Positions 2,991 to 17,726 of a DNA stretch of 64,000 nucleotides are shown here, piece by piece. How positions within the stretch are numbered: the stretch's first letter is position 1; every line of letters starts with the position of its first letter. The DNA is taken from NCBI RefSeq assembly GCF_000217795.1, contig NC_015681.1, forward strand, positions 1 through 64,000. Reading direction: 5' to 3'. A program made the position numbers and the translations under genes. A model generated the notes under the pieces. The model was not told the DNA's origin. It made no database searches and saw only the letters and a program-made list of their open reading frames with translations. Source of the DNA: Thermodesulfatator indicus DSM 15286 (GTDB lineage: Bacteria; Desulfobacterota; Thermodesulfobacteria; Thermodesulfobacteriales; Thermodesulfatatoraceae).

Positions 2991-4874
2991 GTGCCGATAT
3001 TGAGAACGCTGATATTAATATTTTTATTTTTATTGGCCTCAGGGAAGGTTTTCGCTCAAGAACTAGTCTTTGATGAAGAAACTTTTAAAAAAATAGCTTC
3101 TGTAATTAGACACGAAACTATATTCTCTAAAGAGCCAGGCACTTTATCTACCTTAACTGCTCAGGACCTTGAAATACTAAATCCACAGGATCTCACCTGG
3201 GTATTACGTTATCTCCCAGGAGTACTGCTAAATTATACTTCTCCTAGTTACGCCAATATAATGTTTAGGGGGGCTACTGGTGTTTTCCCTCCCATTCAGG
3301 TATTGCTTGATGGAAGGCCTTACACCATTGAAGCCATAGGCATAACGGTCTGGCCTTTTTTACTGATCGATCCCTCAGAAATAGAACGCATAGAGCTTAT
3401 CAGCACACCAGCTTCAGTCTATTTTGGCTCAAACGCCCTCACTGGGGCCATAAATATTGTAACTAAACCCCCTGAAGATATACATAAAAATTCCATACAG
3501 ACCTCTTTAGGAACCCAATCTTACTTTAAAACCGCAGGAATATTTAAGAAATATATAAAGCCCTGGCATGTATATGCTTTTGTTGGCCAAGAAAAAGTAG
3601 ATGACTTTCATTCCTCAAATCTTTCTATGAGAAGATGTATGGCAAGAACTTCTCTTTCTCGAATCACAAGATTGGGAACGCTTAGATTTGACATTGGTTT
3701 TTATAGCGGTGAATTAAAAAATCTTTATATATTGAGAAATCTTTCAGAAAGTTTTGGTCTTTTTGATTTTGGTATAGATACTGATGATGTTCATCATTGG
3801 GGAGCGCGCCTTGCTTTAGAAGGCCCAACTTACTTTATAAGATTTTCAAATTATCAGGCCGATGGGGAATTGGTAATAACAAATACTTTGAATCAACCCA
3901 TAAAATATAAACAGAAAGACTATTTATTAGAAGCTGAGAAATATTTATACTTTTACAAACAACGCTTAACAATAGGCTTTAACCTTCAGCAGGTAAATAC
4001 AGACACTGATTTTATAAAAGATAGTGATGAAACAAGGTTTGCCCTTTTTGCCGAAGATTTAATAAAACTAAATAAAAAGATAGATTTAAATTTAGGAGCT
4101 AGAATTAATTATCATCCTTTAACAAATTTTTATTTTTCACCTAGAGCATCCTTTGTTTTTAGTCTTAGACCAAATATAAAATTACGTTATACCTATACCA
4201 GAAGCTTCGGAAATCCAATTCTATACTATACAAGTATAAACCTTAAAAACTATCCCATAAAAATTCCTAATTATCCAATAGACTTCAAACTTACTATTGA
4301 GCCTACTAAAAAACCAGAATATATTAAACAAGATGCCCATGAGGTAAGCCTATTAATCAAAAAGAAAAAGCATAGCTTATTGCTTTCTATGTTTAACTAT
4401 TATATAAAAGACTACCCATATCAAAAAATTGAACAAATTAATCAGATAACTGGAACAATCAATGTTAGTTCAGGATACCTCAAAAGAAAAATAAAAGGTT
4501 TTAGCATCGAATACCAATATCATATATTTAACAATTTTAGCCTTAGAACAAACTACGAATATACTGATGTGAAAAATTTGACTACTAATAGAAAAGAAAA
4601 AATATTTCCAAGACATTTAATCTCAGGCTTAATTCTCTATAAAAGAAAAAAATTTAGCGGTTTTATTGGAGTAAATTATATTAGCAAAAGAGAAGACTCA
4701 AACGTAAAAATAGGAGATATTTTTTATTTAGATACAGGAATAAATTTTAAATTAAGTAAAAAATTTTCAGTAAGTATACAGGGCCTTAATATTTTAAATT
4801 GTCAAGAAAAAAACGACATCTTTGGTAAAGAATTAGAAAGACGTCTATTTTTAAACCTAAAATATCAATGGTAA
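2991..4874 (+). CDS. TonB-dependent outer-membrane receptor
   Basis: A 627-residue outer-membrane beta-barrel receptor for energised uptake of a scarce ligand. The GTG start lies 11 bases after GAGG. Residues 1-22 form a signal peptide ending near KVFAQ. A plug domain follows, with VLRYLPGVLLN, IMFRGATG, VLLDGRPYT, PSEIERIELIS and GALTGAINIV-like features in the usual order (about 45-165). The rest is strand-rich and ends with an aromatic residue (LNLKYQW), as barrel proteins do. It overlaps the next gene by 7 bases and begins a three-gene cassette. Codon use becomes extremely A/T-rich from about 3700 onward, unlike the flanking genes, which suggests transfer. No tonB, exbB or exbD lies in the window. 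The ligand cannot be read from the sequence. Confidence 0.88.
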   Translation: MPILRTLILIFLFLLASGKVFAQELVFDEETFKKIASVIRHETIFSKEPGTLSTLTAQDLEILNPQDLTWVLRYLPGVLLNYTSPSYANIMFRGATGVFPPIQVLLDGRPYTIEAIGITVWPFLLIDPSEIERIELISTPASVYFGSNALTGAINIVTKPPEDIHKNSIQTSLGTQSYFKTAGIFKKYIKPWHVYAFVGQEKVDDFHSSNLSMRRCMARTSLSRITRLGTLRFDIGFYSGELKNLYILRNLSESFGLFDFGIDTDDVHHWGARLALEGPTYFIRFSNYQADGELVITNTLNQPIKYKQKDYLLEAEKYLYFYKQRLTIGFNLQQVNTDTDFIKDSDETRFALFAEDLIKLNKKIDLNLGARINYHPLTNFYFSPRASFVFSLRPNIKLRYTYTRSFGNPILYYTSINLKNYPIKIPNYPIDFKLTIEPTKKPEYIKQDAHEVSLLIKKKKHSLLLSMFNYYIKDYPYQKIEQINQITGTINVSSGYLKRKIKGFSIEYQYHIFNNFSLRTNYEYTDVKNLTTNRKEKIFPRHLISGLILYKRKKFSGFIGVNYISKREDSNVKIGDIFYLDTGINFKLSKKFSVSIQGLNILNCQEKNDIFGKELERRLFLNLKYQW

Positions 4875-5764
4875 AAAAAAGACAATTAATCATAACAATT
4901 ATAGCAATAATAATTTTTCTATCAAAAAATACTCACGCTGATATAATAATTATTTCATCATCTAAAATATACTATAAACAGGCAATCGAACTCTTTTTAA
5001 AAGAATTAGAGGCAAAAAAAATAGAAACCTCTAAAGTAGAGATAGTATACGATAATTTTAAAAACTTTTATATTAAAGATGATAGCTTTATAATCTCCTT
5101 GGGTGGCGATCTTACCAAAAAAATATTGAGAAAAAACTATAAAAAAATATTCTTTTTTATGACTGCTGATGCAGATTTATATGATTTAAGTTTAAAGATT
5201 AATAACAGCAAATCTGATAAAAAAATTTCTGGAATTTTTTATTTACCAGAGATAAAAAAAAGACTAGAAGTTTTAAAAGAAATTTTCAACAGCAATATCA
5301 TTATTTCTATCCTTCATAGCAAATCATCTTTATTTTATGCCAAAAAGATAAAAAGTGAAGCAGACAAATTAGGAATTAAAGTAATATTAATTGAAGCAAA
5401 CAAAGAAAATTTTACAACTAAAATAGAAGAAGCTTTTAGTAAAGGTAATATATTCTGGATGATTCCTGATGAGTCTATTTATAATCAAACTACTATAAAG
5501 TTAATACTGATATCAGCTGTTAAAAAAGGTATCCCTGTTATAAGCTTTTCTCCTGTTTTTATAGATATTGGTGCATTTATGAGCTATCAAATAGACATAA
5601 ATGATTATATAAAAGAAGCTGCAGAAACATTTCTAAAATGTTACCAAAAAGATATTTGTGAAATAAAATTTACTAAAAACTTTAAAATAATAATCAATAA
5701 AAACTTAGCAAAATTTTGGAATATTAAAATAAAACTAAAATCCAACTTCTTTATCTTAAAATAA
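4868..5764 (+). CDS. Periplasmic ABC-type substrate-binding protein
   Basis: A 298-residue exported protein. The N-terminus is a signal peptide (basic start, then a run of Ile/Leu, ending near NTHA). The mature part alternates Rossmann-like strands and helices. It contains IISLGGDLTKKIL and FFMTADADLY, and looks like the ABC_sub_bind (TrpX-like) family of periplasmic binding proteins. Membership is my reading rather than a search result. It overlaps the receptor gene upstream by 7 bases and shares TAATG with the sensor kinase downstream, so the three are probably co-translated. No ABC permease or ATPase is adjacent. The likely role is therefore ligand presentation to the receptor or kinase rather than transport. 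Base use is very A/T-rich. Confidence 0.65.
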   Translation: MVKKRQLIITIIAIIIFLSKNTHADIIIISSSKIYYKQAIELFLKELEAKKIETSKVEIVYDNFKNFYIKDDSFIISLGGDLTKKILRKNYKKIFFFMTADADLYDLSLKINNSKSDKKISGIFYLPEIKKRLEVLKEIFNSNIIISILHSKSSLFYAKKIKSEADKLGIKVILIEANKENFTTKIEEAFSKGNIFWMIPDESIYNQTTIKLILISAVKKGIPVISFSPVFIDIGAFMSYQIDINDYIKEAAETFLKCYQKDICEIKFTKNFKIIINKNLAKFWNIKIKLKSNFFILK

Positions 5765-7290
5765 TGGTTAAAACTAATAGTTTATATTTTAGATTTACAG
5801 GACTTACTTTCCTAGCCATTTTTTTTACAGCTATCTTAATAATTTTTAGTTACATATATATAAACAAGAGAAATTTCTGGGAAAATCAAACATCTATATT
5901 ACAAGAAATTGCTAACTCCTTAAAAGAAAGTATAAAATATTATTTACCTCTAGATAGAAAAAATGAAATAAAAAATTTATTTAAAAGTTATATCGATATT
6001 GCTAATATTGAAAACATTGTTCTAATAAAATGCAACAACAAAAAAATACTAATATCTGCCAAAAAAATAAATAATCCAGAAGATATTTTATTTTGTAAAA
6101 AAAATAAAATTATTAAACACGAAGATCATTTCCATTATAAAATTAGCTTCAAAATCAAAATTCCCCAAAAAAACTATTTAGAAGACATAATATTCAAAAG
6201 AAGTAGTAACAATATAAAAGAAGAAAAATATTGTCTTTGCTTTATTCTTTCTAGCCAAAAAATATTCTCACAGCTATGGAAACCCATAATTACCTCAATA
6301 ATCATCGCTATTATTATAACATGCATATTGACAATAATTTCTATTTTTACTGTTAACAAAATCAGTGCCCCACTAAAAAAGGTAACAGAACAGATAAATG
6401 CCATATCTAGAGGAAATATTGAAGAAATAGAACCAGAACTCCTTGAAAGCGAAATAGAAGAAATCAAAGAGTTAGCAAACGCTTTCAATAAAATGGTAGA
6501 AGCGCTAAAAAACAAAGAAATAGAAGTAAGAAAGGAAATAGAAGGTTACATAAATGAACTAGAAAAGAAAAATAATGAACTTAAAAAAGCCCTCAAATCT
6601 TTAAAAGAAAGCCAAGAACAATTAATACAAACAGAAAAATTGGCAGGACTTGGCTTCATATCTGCTGGTATTGCTCACGAAATTAACAATCCATTACAAG
6701 TTATAAATGGATATTGTGAAATTATTTTAGCGAAAGAAACTGATCAAAATAAAATAAAAAATCTCAAAAGAATTCAAGAAAGCGTTAATAGAATAAAGAA
6801 AATTACTGAATCATTAGGAGAATATACCAGAAAAGAAAATAACTTCAAAAAAGTCAACCTGCGAGAAGTTGTCGACAAAGCTATAGAAACAGTAAAATTC
6901 TCTGAAAAGATAAAGAATATAGCTTTTGATATAAACGTTGACCCAAACATCAAGATTATTGGCAAACCAACAGAACTACAACAGGTCTTTATCAACTTAT
7001 TTTTAAACTCGGTTCAGGCTATGGAAGGCGAAGGAAAAATTTGTGTAGAAGCTAAGAACAGTAAAAAAGAAAAGCTTGTATATATTTACGTTAAAGATAC
7101 TGGTCCAGGAATACCTTCCGAACATCGCAAATATATTTTTGATCCGTTTTTTACCACTAAAAGCCCCGGGGAAGGAACAGGGCTTGGCCTTAACATTGTT
7201 TACCGAATTATAATGAAGCATAAAGGCTTTATTCGAGTCCTAGATAATGACCCCGGAGCTACTTTTGAAATTATATTAAAGACCGTTTAA
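5764..7290 (+). CDS. Membrane sensor histidine kinase (HAMP, HisKA, HATPase)
   Basis: A 508-residue sensor kinase. Membrane segments lie at about 12-32 and 173-196 and flank a periplasmic domain of about 140 residues. A HAMP linker follows (about 197-250) and then a charged coiled coil (about 245-290). The phosphoacceptor box is [12 protein letters not shown] with His305. The ATPase domain has [10 protein letters not shown] (N box), DTGPGIP (G1), FDPFFTTK (F box) and GTGLGLNIV (G2). The start ATG overlaps the stop of the binding-protein gene (TAATG). No response regulator is next to it; the nearest in the window is the lone receiver at 15265-15639. Very A/T-rich codon use matches the two genes before it. 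The ligand probably arrives through the preceding binding protein, which is inference. Confidence 0.92.
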
Positions 7291-7297
7291 TTAAGTT

Positions 7298-7459
7298 CTT
7301 TGCAAAGGCTCAGAAATATAGGTTGAGATCGCTTCGGCTATAGTGACTCGCGACCGAGATTGCTTCGCTTTGCTCGCAATGACAGTGTAAGAAGGTAGCA
7401 AACGTAGTTCCTACGCATGTAGCGAAGCAATATCTTTTAAAAACTTTAGCAAAGGTCTC
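7298..7459. repeat. Small repeat element, REP-like core, downstream of ilvD
   Basis: Non-coding insert between the sensor kinase and ilvD. It carries a copy of the widespread GTCATTGCGAG...CGAAGCAATCT type of palindrome at about 7356-7384. CTTTGCAAAGGCTC lies at the left edge (7298-7311) and GCAAAGGTCTC at the right (7449-7459). The right edge touches the ilvD stop codon. It shares ends and core with the elements at 9180-9512 and 43635-43815 but is the most degenerate of the three. Confidence 0.6.
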
Positions 7460-14248: not shown

Positions 14249-15265
14249 ATGCCTGAATTAAGAAAAGACCCTGTTGTCGGCCGGTGGGTTATTATCGCTA
14301 AAGAAAGGGCCAAACGTCCCCACGATTTTATTATTCCAGAAGAAAAAACCAAAGGGGGTTTTTGCCCCCTTTGCCCGGGCCACGAATATTCTACCCCTCC
14401 AGAAGTTTTAGCCTATGGCCGCCCGCCAGAAGCACCCCCTAACAGCCCTGGCTGGACGGTAAGAGTAGTGCCTAACAAATTTCCAGCACTTCGCATTGAA
14501 GGTGAACTCTGGAAAGAAGGTGAAGGAATCTATGATAAAATGAATGGTATCGGGGCTCATGAGGTCATCATAGAAACTCCCAATCACCACGAAACACTTT
14601 CTACCATGCCTATAGATCGCTTAGTCCAAGTCTTTTGGGCCTATCGAGACCGTATGGTTGATCTCTCTAGAGACCCACGTTTTCGTTACGTTATCATATT
14701 TAAAAACCATGGCCGGGCTGCTGGAGCCTCACTTGAACATGCTCACTCACAACTTATCGCCTTACCTGTTCTTCCCCTCAGAATGAATCAAGAGCTTAGA
14801 GGCACCAAAATGTATTACGATTATAAGGAGCGTTGTATCTTTTGTGACATCGTACACCAGGAACTCAGAGACGGAAAAAGAGTAGTCTGCGAAAATCACG
14901 AGTTCGTAGCTATTTGTGCCTTTGCTCCCAGACAACCTTTTGAAATGTGGATTATTCCTAAAAAACATCATTCTGATTTCCGTACTATTGATGAAAGCCA
15001 ATTAAGGGCGCTTGCTGAGATATTCTCTGAAGTTTTAAAGCGGCTTGATACTGCTATTCCTCGTTGTCCTTACAATTTCGTTCTTCACACCGCTCCCTTG
15101 CGCGAGCCTTATCTGGAACACTACCACTGGCACTTTGAACTCTTACCCAAACTCACCCAAATAGCTGGTTTTGAATGGGGCACTGGTTTTTACATTACGC
15201 CAACGAGCCCTGAAGACGCAGCCCATTTCTTACGTGAAATAAAACTTTCTGAAGGAGGCCAATAA
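14249..15265 (+). CDS. galT: Galactose-1-phosphate uridylyltransferase (GalT family)
   Basis: A 338-residue nucleotidylyl transferase of the HIT superfamily. The active site is EHAHSQLI with His164 and His166; the latter would form the uridylyl-enzyme. A second histidine cluster, EHYHWHFELLP, lies near the C-terminus. Cysteine pairs FCPLCPGHE and CIFCDIV suggest bound zinc. Start ATG 14249 follows AAGGAGG, and the stop overlaps the receiver gene (TAATG). Next to a GH57 glucanase it could serve glycogen-derived sugars. Some thermophile members use ADP-glucose instead, so substrate identity is less sure than family. Confidence 0.87.
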   Translation: MPELRKDPVVGRWVIIAKERAKRPHDFIIPEEKTKGGFCPLCPGHEYSTPPEVLAYGRPPEAPPNSPGWTVRVVPNKFPALRIEGELWKEGEGIYDKMNGIGAHEVIIETPNHHETLSTMPIDRLVQVFWAYRDRMVDLSRDPRFRYVIIFKNHGRAAGASLEHAHSQLIALPVLPLRMNQELRGTKMYYDYKERCIFCDIVHQELRDGKRVVCENHEFVAICAFAPRQPFEMWIIPKKHHSDFRTIDESQLRALAEIFSEVLKRLDTAIPRCPYNFVLHTAPLREPYLEHYHWHFELLPKLTQIAGFEWGTGFYITPTSPEDAAHFLREIKLSEGGQ

Positions 15266-15639
15266 TGGCAGACAAACCTAAAATACTTATCGTTGACGAC
15301 GAAGAAAGTATCCACCTTCTTTATAGAGAGGAACTCTCTGAAGAAGGCTATGAAGTTATCTCTGCCTTAAATGGCCCTGAAGCCATTGAACTGGTAGATA
15401 AAGAAAATCCAGATCTGGTGGTTCTTGACATAAATATGCCTGGCATGGACGGCTTAGAAGTTTTGCGCATCATTAAGGAAAAACATCCTCGTCTTCCAGT
15501 TATTTTGTGTTCTGCTTATCCGGAATTCAAACAAGACTTGAGTTCTTGGGCCTCAGAGGATTATATCGTCAAATCTTTTGATCTTACCGAATTAAAGGAA
15601 TCTATTAAAAAGAATTTGGCTAAAACAACAGAAAACTAA
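15265..15639 (+). CDS. Single-domain response regulator (receiver only)
   Basis: A 124-residue CheY-like receiver with no output domain. Key residues are visible: the acidic pair in VDDEE near the N-terminus, the phosphoacceptor Asp in VVLDINMPGMDG, the conserved Ser in LCSAYPE, and Lys in YIVKSFD. It is translationally coupled to galT. No kinase is adjacent. A sigma-54 activator without its own receiver is encoded convergently just downstream, but a link between them is only a guess. Confidence 0.93.
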   Translation: MADKPKILIVDDEESIHLLYREELSEEGYEVISALNGPEAIELVDKENPDLVVLDINMPGMDGLEVLRIIKEKHPRLPVILCSAYPEFKQDLSSWASEDYIVKSFDLTELKESIKKNLAKTTEN

Positions 15640-16673: not shown

Positions 16674-17726
16674 TTATAACCCCATCTCTTCGAATTCTCT
16701 AAGTTTATAAAGAAGCGCCTTATAAGAGATCCCCAAAAGCGCTGCGGCCTGCTTTTTATTGCCATCGGTTTGCCTGAGGACCATATCAATTATCTTTTTT
16801 TCCACCAGAGCCAGCACTCGCTTTTTTACATCTTTTAGGCAGATCTTTCCCTGTTCTGCTTTAGCCAGCTCTAAAGCAATACGTTTGGCAAATTGTTCAT
16901 TTTCTGTCTCCAAGATATCTTCTGGATCTAAAATTTTTAAAAAGCGCTTTATCTCTATTTCAACTTCTTCAAAGTCTCTTAAAACCACCAGTCGTTTGAT
17001 GTAGTTTTCAAGCTCACGGACATTCCCTGGCCAGCTGTATTTAAGAAAGAGTTCTAGTAAGCTAGAAGGAATTTTGAAATCTGTGACATTATATTTGCGG
17101 CCATAAAGATTAGCGAAATAGTCACATAGTAAAGGTATGTCTTCTTTTCTTTCTCTAAGGGGAGGGATATAAATTTTTATGACACTTAAACGATAGTAAA
17201 GATCTTGCCTAAAAGAACCTTTTTCTACGTCTTTTTCTAGATCATGGTTAGTAGCTGTAATAACCCAAACATCAACTTTTATGTCTTTTTTACCGCCCAA
17301 GCGGCAAAACTCTTGGTCCTGGAGGACCTGAAGAAGTTTTGATTGAAGGGAGAGAGGCATGTCTCCAATTTCGTCAAGAAAAATTACCCCGCCATTTGCC
17401 TGTTCAAAACGACCAGGCTTTGCCCTTTCTGCTCCGGTAAAGGCCCCTTTTTCATAACCGAAAAGCTCGCTTTCCAAAAGTTCTTCGGGAATAGCAGCGC
17501 AATTAACCTTAACAAAAGGTCCTCGGGAACGATAAGAGCAGGCATATAAAGTTCTTGCCACCACCTCCTTGCCGACTCCGCTTTCTCCATATATAACAAC
17601 ATTTAAATCAGTATCAGCTACTTGGAGGATAAGATTCTTTATGCGCTTAATAGCAGGACTTTGGCCAACTATATTTCTTAATGGGCCTTCAAGATGTTTA
17701 TCTTGTTCAGTAGCTAGTGCATTCAC
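16674..17726 (-). CDS. Sigma-54 dependent activator lacking a receiver domain
   Basis: A 350-residue enhancer-binding protein. The AAA+ domain has Walker A GESGVGKE, the sigma-54 contact loop ELFGYEKGAFTGA, Walker B GGVIFLDEIGD, and LYYRLSVIKIYIPPLRER. SWPGNVRELEN follows. The C-terminal Fis-type helix-turn-helix reads NKKQAAALLGISYKALLYKL. The N-terminus is only about 20 residues, so there is no receiver, GAF or PAS input domain. The protein must be controlled in some other way. The start ATG follows TGGAG. The downstream gene is the epimerase, and the two may be co-regulated. Confidence 0.94.
   Translation of the reverse strand: MNALATEQDKHLEGPLRNIVGQSPAIKRIKNLILQVADTDLNVVIYGESGVGKEVVARTLYACSYRSRGPFVKVNCAAIPEELLESELFGYEKGAFTGAERAKPGRFEQANGGVIFLDEIGDMPLSLQSKLLQVLQDQEFCRLGGKKDIKVDVWVITATNHDLEKDVEKGSFRQDLYYRLSVIKIYIPPLRERKEDIPLLCDYFANLYGRKYNVTDFKIPSSLLELFLKYSWPGNVRELENYIKRLVVLRDFEEVEIEIKRFLKILDPEDILETENEQFAKRIALELAKAEQGKICLKDVKKRVLALVEKKIIDMVLRQTDGNKKQAAALLGISYKALLYKLREFEEMGL

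Follow-up and report, generated by a model that had tools for sequence, protein, structure and literature searches.

Which task is performed by three tightly packed genes downstream of dnaA in Thermodesulfatator indicus DSM 15286, which encode an outer-membrane receptor, a periplasmic binding protein (SBP) and a sensor kinase? The genome consists of one contig of 2,322,224 bases, and its first 64,000 nucleotides, the whole stretch that was analysed, are referred to as the window. TonB-dependent receptors are usually tied to uptake or to FecR/sigma signalling, and proteins of the SBP's family, PF04392, are by default annotated as parts of ATP-binding cassette (ABC) transporters. From the analyses described below, the chances appeared slightly better than even that the cassette is a three-gene sensing operon, in which a receptor-to-kinase relay is fed by the TonB receptor. 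The model for such a relay is LuxP/LuxQ, the periplasmic binding protein and sensor kinase used for autoinducer-2 sensing in Vibrio. The features concerned are:

2991..4874, + strand: TonB-dependent outer-membrane receptor, 627 amino acids (aa), GTG start; Pfam PF07715 (4e-14) and PF00593 (1.4e-19)
4868..5764, + strand: PF04392 periplasmic binding protein (SBP), 298 aa, N-terminal hydrophobic segment; Pfam 2.4e-11
5764..7290, + strand: membrane sensor histidine kinase, 508 aa; HAMP, HisKA and HATPase_c (Pfam), hydropathy
3500..7000, no strand assigned: AT-rich core of the cassette; V-shaped profile of G+C content (GC), similar in three relatives

The open reading frames, all on the + strand, overlap by seven bases (receptor/SBP) and by one base (SBP/kinase), just as the first-pass annotation of this DNA had described. 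All domains scored above the curated Pfam cut-offs (Plug and TonB_dep_Rec_b-barrel; ABC_sub_bind; HAMP, HisKA and HATPase_c). The statement that permease, ATPase, response regulator and TonB are missing from the cassette is correct and extends to the adjoining genes, as judged from the reading frames and Pfam.

If the three proteins act together, their genes should be found together in other genomes. A profile built from six SBPs matched in 123 of 395 genomes of the phylum, G021 among the genomes matched. In total, 147 SBPs were collected, of which 139 were retained after removal of eight duplicates. The loci comprised 40 picked by hand from the profile search, mostly from its top, 20 from the Pfam and profile lists, five of relatives, the window, and 80 chosen by similarity (the best 80 of 176), which according to their record titles belong to Desulfobacterota-type bacteria, Nitrospirae, Aminicenantes, Deferribacteres, and others. 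This set is non-random and mostly chosen by similarity, its fractions are not population estimates, and contig ends truncate several of the loci. In the aligned sets, Pfam recognized 41 of 41 SBPs, 24 of 24 HATPase domains, and 27 of 27 plugs. Scoring partners within 5 kb of the SBP, a receptor was detected in 103 of the 139 loci, a kinase in 111, both in 89, and at least one of them in 125. In 99 of the 111 cases, the kinase gene follows immediately 3' of the SBP gene on the same strand with a gap of 150 bases or less. The receptor gene is located upstream on the same strand in 43 loci, divergently in 49, and downstream in 11. The order receptor, SBP, kinase, which the first-pass annotation had proposed to look for elsewhere, was indeed found, colinear with gaps of no more than 150 bases, in 22 loci including the window. 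An NtrC-type regulator is encoded within 5 kb in 32 loci (one such protein was named by NCBIfam), and an ABC permease in eight, none of which has a receptor or kinase.

The distribution of partners follows the phylogeny of the binding proteins. In a tree of 139 rows, one fork (support 99) unites ten SBPs that were picked from the highest-ranking Pfam matches and comprise all eight permease-linked ones, and the label 'ABC transporter' requires two changes on the tree versus 6.9 in shuffles. The SBP of the window is placed outside this fork, on a long branch within a four-row fork (support 100). At positions Y36, G79, P200, F227, and S228, its family agrees with the group linked to receptors and kinases, while mostly L, A, T or S, A or G, and D are present in the transporter clade. 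W197 is not diagnostic, since the solved tryptophan binder also has tryptophan there. Genomic context and tree show two lineages of PF04392, one accompanied by ABC permeases and the other by receptors and kinases. Among six long PF04392 fusion proteins, a permease domain is present in four, a different membrane-transport domain in one, and nothing but SBP repeats in one. In L033, L034, L036, and L037 (loci are designated by L and genomes by G numbers), up to three PF04392 domains per protein are fused behind a BPD_transp_2 permease domain.

Membership of the SBP in PF04392 is clear, with 43.8 bits versus a gathering score of 25.9. An AlphaFold2 model based on a 41-row alignment (mean predicted local distance difference test, pLDDT, 91.3) has a type I periplasmic binding-protein fold. 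It matches CD0873, 3LKV, and the tryptophan binder 3LFT with Z scores of 20-21 over 266-270 residues at a root-mean-square deviation of 4.4-5.6; LuxP is also among the matches, but weaker. Against the TrpX equivalog NF041285, the protein reaches only 37.2 bits versus a cut-off of 390, and neither a permease nor an ATPase of the TrpX type is encoded in the cassette or the adjoining genes.

In the receptor, a signal peptide recognized by eye is followed by a plug at residues 48-153 and a beta-barrel; among solved structures, the colicin I receptor is closest to it in sequence (1e-14). An N-terminal STN domain was not reported: up to an E value of 0.1, Pfam returned plug and barrel plus one further barrel model below threshold. 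For the kinase, hydropathy predicts transmembrane segments at about 13-31 and 179-197 enclosing a periplasmic segment of about 32-178, after which HAMP, HisKA, and HATPase domains follow. Its structural model is of moderate local quality (pLDDT 80.4) but low global quality (predicted template modelling score 0.39). The periplasmic part was modelled as a long helix plus a sheet, and the structure matches are dominated by the kinase core (Z up to 22). No Response_reg match was obtained for this kinase with Pfam, and its best NCBIfam scores, AtoS and ZraS, are far under their cut-offs.

From these properties the following sequence of events can be proposed. The receptor, judged by its family, would bind a scarce extracellular molecule and bring it into the periplasm, with TonB supplied by proteins encoded elsewhere in the genome, where two TonB_C matches over the cut-off are present. 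The PF04392 protein would capture the imported molecule and, when loaded, might touch the downstream-encoded kinase at its periplasmic domain and alter its autophosphorylation, as in LuxP/LuxQ. From there, the phosphoryl group would pass to a response regulator encoded outside the operon. An NtrC-type protein is the likeliest recipient, since genes for such regulators are found close to the kinase gene in many relatives, and it would tune the expression of genes for uptake or use. A lone receiver-domain protein (15265-15639) and a sigma54-activator-like protein (16674-17726), both named by eye, are encoded 8-10 kb downstream of the kinase gene, and their products are possible output partners. 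Downstream of the trio, L118, L119, L120, L123, and L010 encode a further kinase of 362-410 aa whose N-terminus resembles a receiver (one was scanned, the others are alike), which suggests a two-kinase phosphorelay in that branch.

The coupling of receptor, SBP, and kinase into a signalling line had already been put forward in the first-pass annotation. It gains support from its recurrence, from a search of this genome with one TrpX-type permease, which gave no close match, and from the co-occurrence of close homologues of the receptor, the SBP, and the kinase sensor domain in the same four genomes, G000, G004, G007, and G008 (the search covered 41 genomes for the SBP, 21 for the receptor, and 13 for the kinase sensor domain). 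The passage of a signal through the three proteins is what we infer from these data. G010 shows only weak SBP matches (1e-8) and no match to the sensor domain; two further receptor-SBP-kinase copies with normal GC are present in this genome.

Several observations weigh against a dedicated relay. The deep placement of the SBP in the tree is unsure, its family is divergent, and it differs at P72, A82, G147, and G248, positions that are kept by the receptor/kinase group. The position of the receptor gene varies, and the arrangement of SBP and kinase alone is tightly fixed. Six of the 139 loci have none of the scored partners, 22 a kinase without a receptor, and 14 a receptor without a kinase. A fusion of PF04392 with a kinase was not found, as no kinase domain is present in the analysed part of the six long PF04392 proteins, one of which is cut by the locus end. 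Finally, Pfam assigns the Cache domain sCache_4 to four of 24 kinases from such loci, from which it follows that some of them could bind a ligand directly; the kinase of the window does not match it.

These Cache matches also bear on the alternative that survives best, an uptake operon with its own regulator, in which receptor and SBP feed an unlinked ABC importer and the kinase senses the ligand itself. The periplasmic domain modelled for the kinase is compatible with this, and PF04392 proteins of the other lineage adjoin a permease in eight of 139 loci. However, none of the 125 loci with a receptor or kinase has a permease as well, and a one-query search of the genome for permeases yielded a single weak match (1930519-1931283; 7e-5, 27% identity), which adjoins genes read by eye as LivM/F/G, a branched-chain operon of the LIV type. 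Moreover, direct sensing by the kinase would not require the near-constant adjacency of SBP and kinase genes. An uptake operon seems unlikely, but it is the main rival. A second alternative, in which the SBP is a receptor accessory, a periplasmic chaperone, or a storage protein and the kinase a separate regulator sharing the operon by chance, would fit the 14 loci with receptor and SBP only, nine of which have no other scored partner. It is hard to reconcile with the frequency and fixed position of the kinase gene. Equally, the 22 loci with a kinase and no receptor indicate that the kinase is the more constant partner of the SBP, and this alternative is regarded as improbable.

The neighbours of related loci offer a candidate class of ligands. 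A geopeptide maturase of the radical-SAM/SPASM type, TIGR04280, scored over the cut-off in all three tested neighbours of such loci. Maturase genes are located within 5 kb of 51 of the 139 SBP genes, and all 51 SBPs fall into one 87-row fork (support 99). Within the phylum, TIGR04280 was detected over the cut-off in 25 of 297 genomes. For at least 23 of 30 maturase genes, a gene for this kind of SBP was listed no more than 8 kb away on the contig, and contig breaks are present at some of the others. Upstream of the maturase gene, peptides of about 30-45 residues are encoded in L177-L256 and L113-L172, with a motif of approximately I[IV]VLDxG, a CC, and a short tail. The CC-peptide pattern was detected in 47 of 140 loci, duplicates and the negative L152 being included in the count. 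The geopeptide model TIGR04229 matches two of six CC peptides, both below the cut-off, and the peptide family therefore looks wider than the model.

In the genome of T. indicus itself, no TIGR04280 match over the cut-off was obtained (best 56.4 bits versus 400, whole genome), the sole match to the geopeptide model is weak and inside a 364-aa frame, and the CC-peptide pattern is absent from the window, from L007-L011, and from L152. It is a tentative and rather doubtful proposal, to be taken as a whole, that the trio is a widespread relay whose ligand would be a geopeptide-like, radical-SAM-modified peptide with a CC core serving as metal carrier or signal. Producers would have maturase and precursor beside the relay, and the organism of the window would keep the relay alone, sensing or importing the peptides or metal complexes of others.

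The composition of the cassette is a separate matter. The first-pass annotation had described an A/T-rich cassette with A/T-rich codon use, and this was borne out along the window. The GC of 2991-7290 is 0.285 versus a mean of 0.419 (standard deviation 0.024, minimum 0.357; z = -5.5) in 4.3-kb stretches taken in steps of 100 bases from 7.3 kb to the window end. At third codon positions (GC3), receptor, SBP, and kinase genes have values of 0.25, 0.19, and 0.23, and 11 other genes located within the first 20 kb have 0.34. By quarters, GC falls from 0.41 over 0.33 and 0.28 to 0.24 in the receptor gene, stays at 0.22-0.25 in the SBP gene, and amounts to 0.20, 0.29, 0.28, and 0.35 in the kinase gene. 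The profile is V-shaped and not a block, and its edges are gradual. AT-richness is not general in such loci. Where at least two flanking genes were available, the mean GC3 difference from the flanks was -0.032 for 52 receptor, -0.008 for 64 SBP, and -0.013 for 57 kinase genes; the low end of the SBP differences is made up by the family of the window, L152, and L123. Across 45 blocks, AT-richness in terms of total GC correlated weakly with weak protein constraint (Spearman 0.38, p 0.011), and no correlation was found for GC3 (Spearman 0.13, p 0.38).

From its AT-richness, the cassette had also been considered as acquired by transfer. Among relatives, two congeneric genomes, G007 and G004, have the trio where the window has it, after dnaA and the FAD-linked (flavin adenine dinucleotide) oxidase gene, and it is likewise AT-rich there. 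The next gene is ilvD in G007, matching the window, and a different one in G004. Similarly low GC in such close relatives is the outcome that the first-pass annotation had named as refuting transfer. G008, a genome of a sister genus, has the trio at a different site. A similar V-shaped GC profile is seen in all four genomes, the largest departure being the second receptor quarter of G008 with 0.42. In five of seven genomes of the genus, the trio is missing at the dnaA/FAD-oxidase site and local GC is higher; in G006, one of the five, a contig break divides the site, and two of the five genomes reach a completeness of only 81-83%. A truncated receptor-SBP pair with 34% GC in the receptor and 28% in the SBP gene was noticed at a contig end in G005 of the same genus (L152 1-2964). 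Two flanking genes in L152 have 53% GC, a larger contrast than in the window.

Divergence between these relatives bears on the persistence of the low GC. Amino-acid identities to G007 are 93% for DnaA, 86% for the FAD oxidase, and 84% for IlvD, and they drop to 68% for the receptor, 54% for the SBP, and 70% for the kinase, indicating that the trio evolves fast. The SBP tree groups the window with G007, then G004, then G008, in agreement with the identities of DnaA (93, 78, and 66%) and the FAD oxidase (86, 74, and 58%). At fourfold-degenerate sites of the trio (259, 212, and 161 sites compared), identities to G007, G004, and G008 are 0.43, 0.36, and 0.29 versus 0.33, 0.31, and 0.30 expected by chance from base composition alone. 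Synonymous turnover is therefore at chance for G008, close to it for G004, and incomplete for G007. GC at these sites in window and relative is 0.27 and 0.22 (G007), 0.27 and 0.28 (G004), and 0.30 and 0.30 (G008), and in the flanking genes dnaA and FAD oxidase, with ilvD added for G007 only, 0.38 and 0.39, 0.44 and 0.41, and 0.45 and 0.59. Since GC is low in all four genomes despite near-complete synonymous turnover, it appears to have been kept and not to be a trace of recent arrival. Low GC is thus a long-maintained property of the trio in this bacterial family, whatever its cause.

The view that a foreign cassette was gained recently and still displays the composition of an AT-rich donor, to which the GC contrast, the five genomes lacking the trio at the site, and the other location in G008 would lend some support, is very improbable and is rejected as far as it was drawn from composition: G007 and G004 share the site and the low GC, the SBP tree agrees with the flanking proteins, and low GC with a similar V-shaped profile accompanies fourfold identities near chance, incomplete divergence being confined to G007. 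Acquisition may nevertheless be older than the split of these species, as suggested by the five genomes without the trio at the site and by its different location in G008.

In the window, the cassette is preceded on the + strand by dnaA and the FAD-linked oxidase gene, and ilvD is the next gene after the kinase gene. The frames of dnaA and the oxidase overlap (168-2991), and the oxidase frame ends 60 bases 5' of the receptor gene on the same strand, so that dnaA and the trio may be cotranscribed. In the intergenic region at 7310-7400, a GCTTCG/CGAAGC-rich inverted pattern was seen by eye, which resembles common interspersed repeats. At gathering scores, no riboswitch or other RNA was detected at the cassette, and the whole window yielded one tRNA. 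Scans for promoters (21 found versus 25.6 expected) and terminators (8 versus 5.3) were both uninformative.

Each part of the cassette belongs to a known family, and sensing by a binding protein plus a kinase is already known from LuxP/LuxQ. In titles and abstract openings from full-text searches of one open-access library, a description of the trio with a TonB receptor as its first member, the PF04392 lineage, or the geopeptide link was not found, and 'geopeptide' retrieved no paper from this library. If the proposed function is correct, a large PF04392 lineage associated with receptors and kinases would be routinely mis-annotated as ABC-transporter parts, and cells would have a means of sensing external molecules that has received little notice. 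The geopeptide link offers a concrete candidate class of ligands for an orphan peptide family and makes the signal testable. The composition data caution against inferring transfer from AT-richness alone, which in this case outlasted most of the synonymous divergence.

Among known systems, geopeptide loci, which encode a ribosomally synthesized and post-translationally modified peptide (TIGR04229) and its TIGR04280 maturase, have receptors, SBPs, and kinases of the same kinds as neighbours, but maturase and CC peptide are lacking in the genome and the window, respectively. With FecA, which together with FecR and FecI performs transenvelope signalling from a TonB receptor, the cassette has in common that a TonB receptor is connected with signalling. 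In contrast to FecA, no STN domain was reported, and the neighbours are FAD oxidase, SBP, kinase, and ilvD genes instead of those for FecR or a sigma factor; a FecA-like transduction was rejected on these grounds. The amino-acid binders TrpX and CD0873 (3LFT with L-Trp, 6HNI/6HNJ) have the same fold and Pfam family as the SBP, which differs from them by its low NF041285 score and by the absence of permease and ATPase genes beside it, and from the transporter-linked clade by F227-S228 in place of A/G-D. A close parallel is LuxP/LuxQ, in which, too, the gene for a type I binding protein lies directly beside that for a membrane kinase with a periplasmic domain. Compared with this pair, the cassette adds a TonB receptor, its kinase has no receiver domain by Pfam, while LuxQ is a hybrid kinase possessing one, and its SBP is a PF04392 protein nearer to TrpX and CD0873 than to LuxP.

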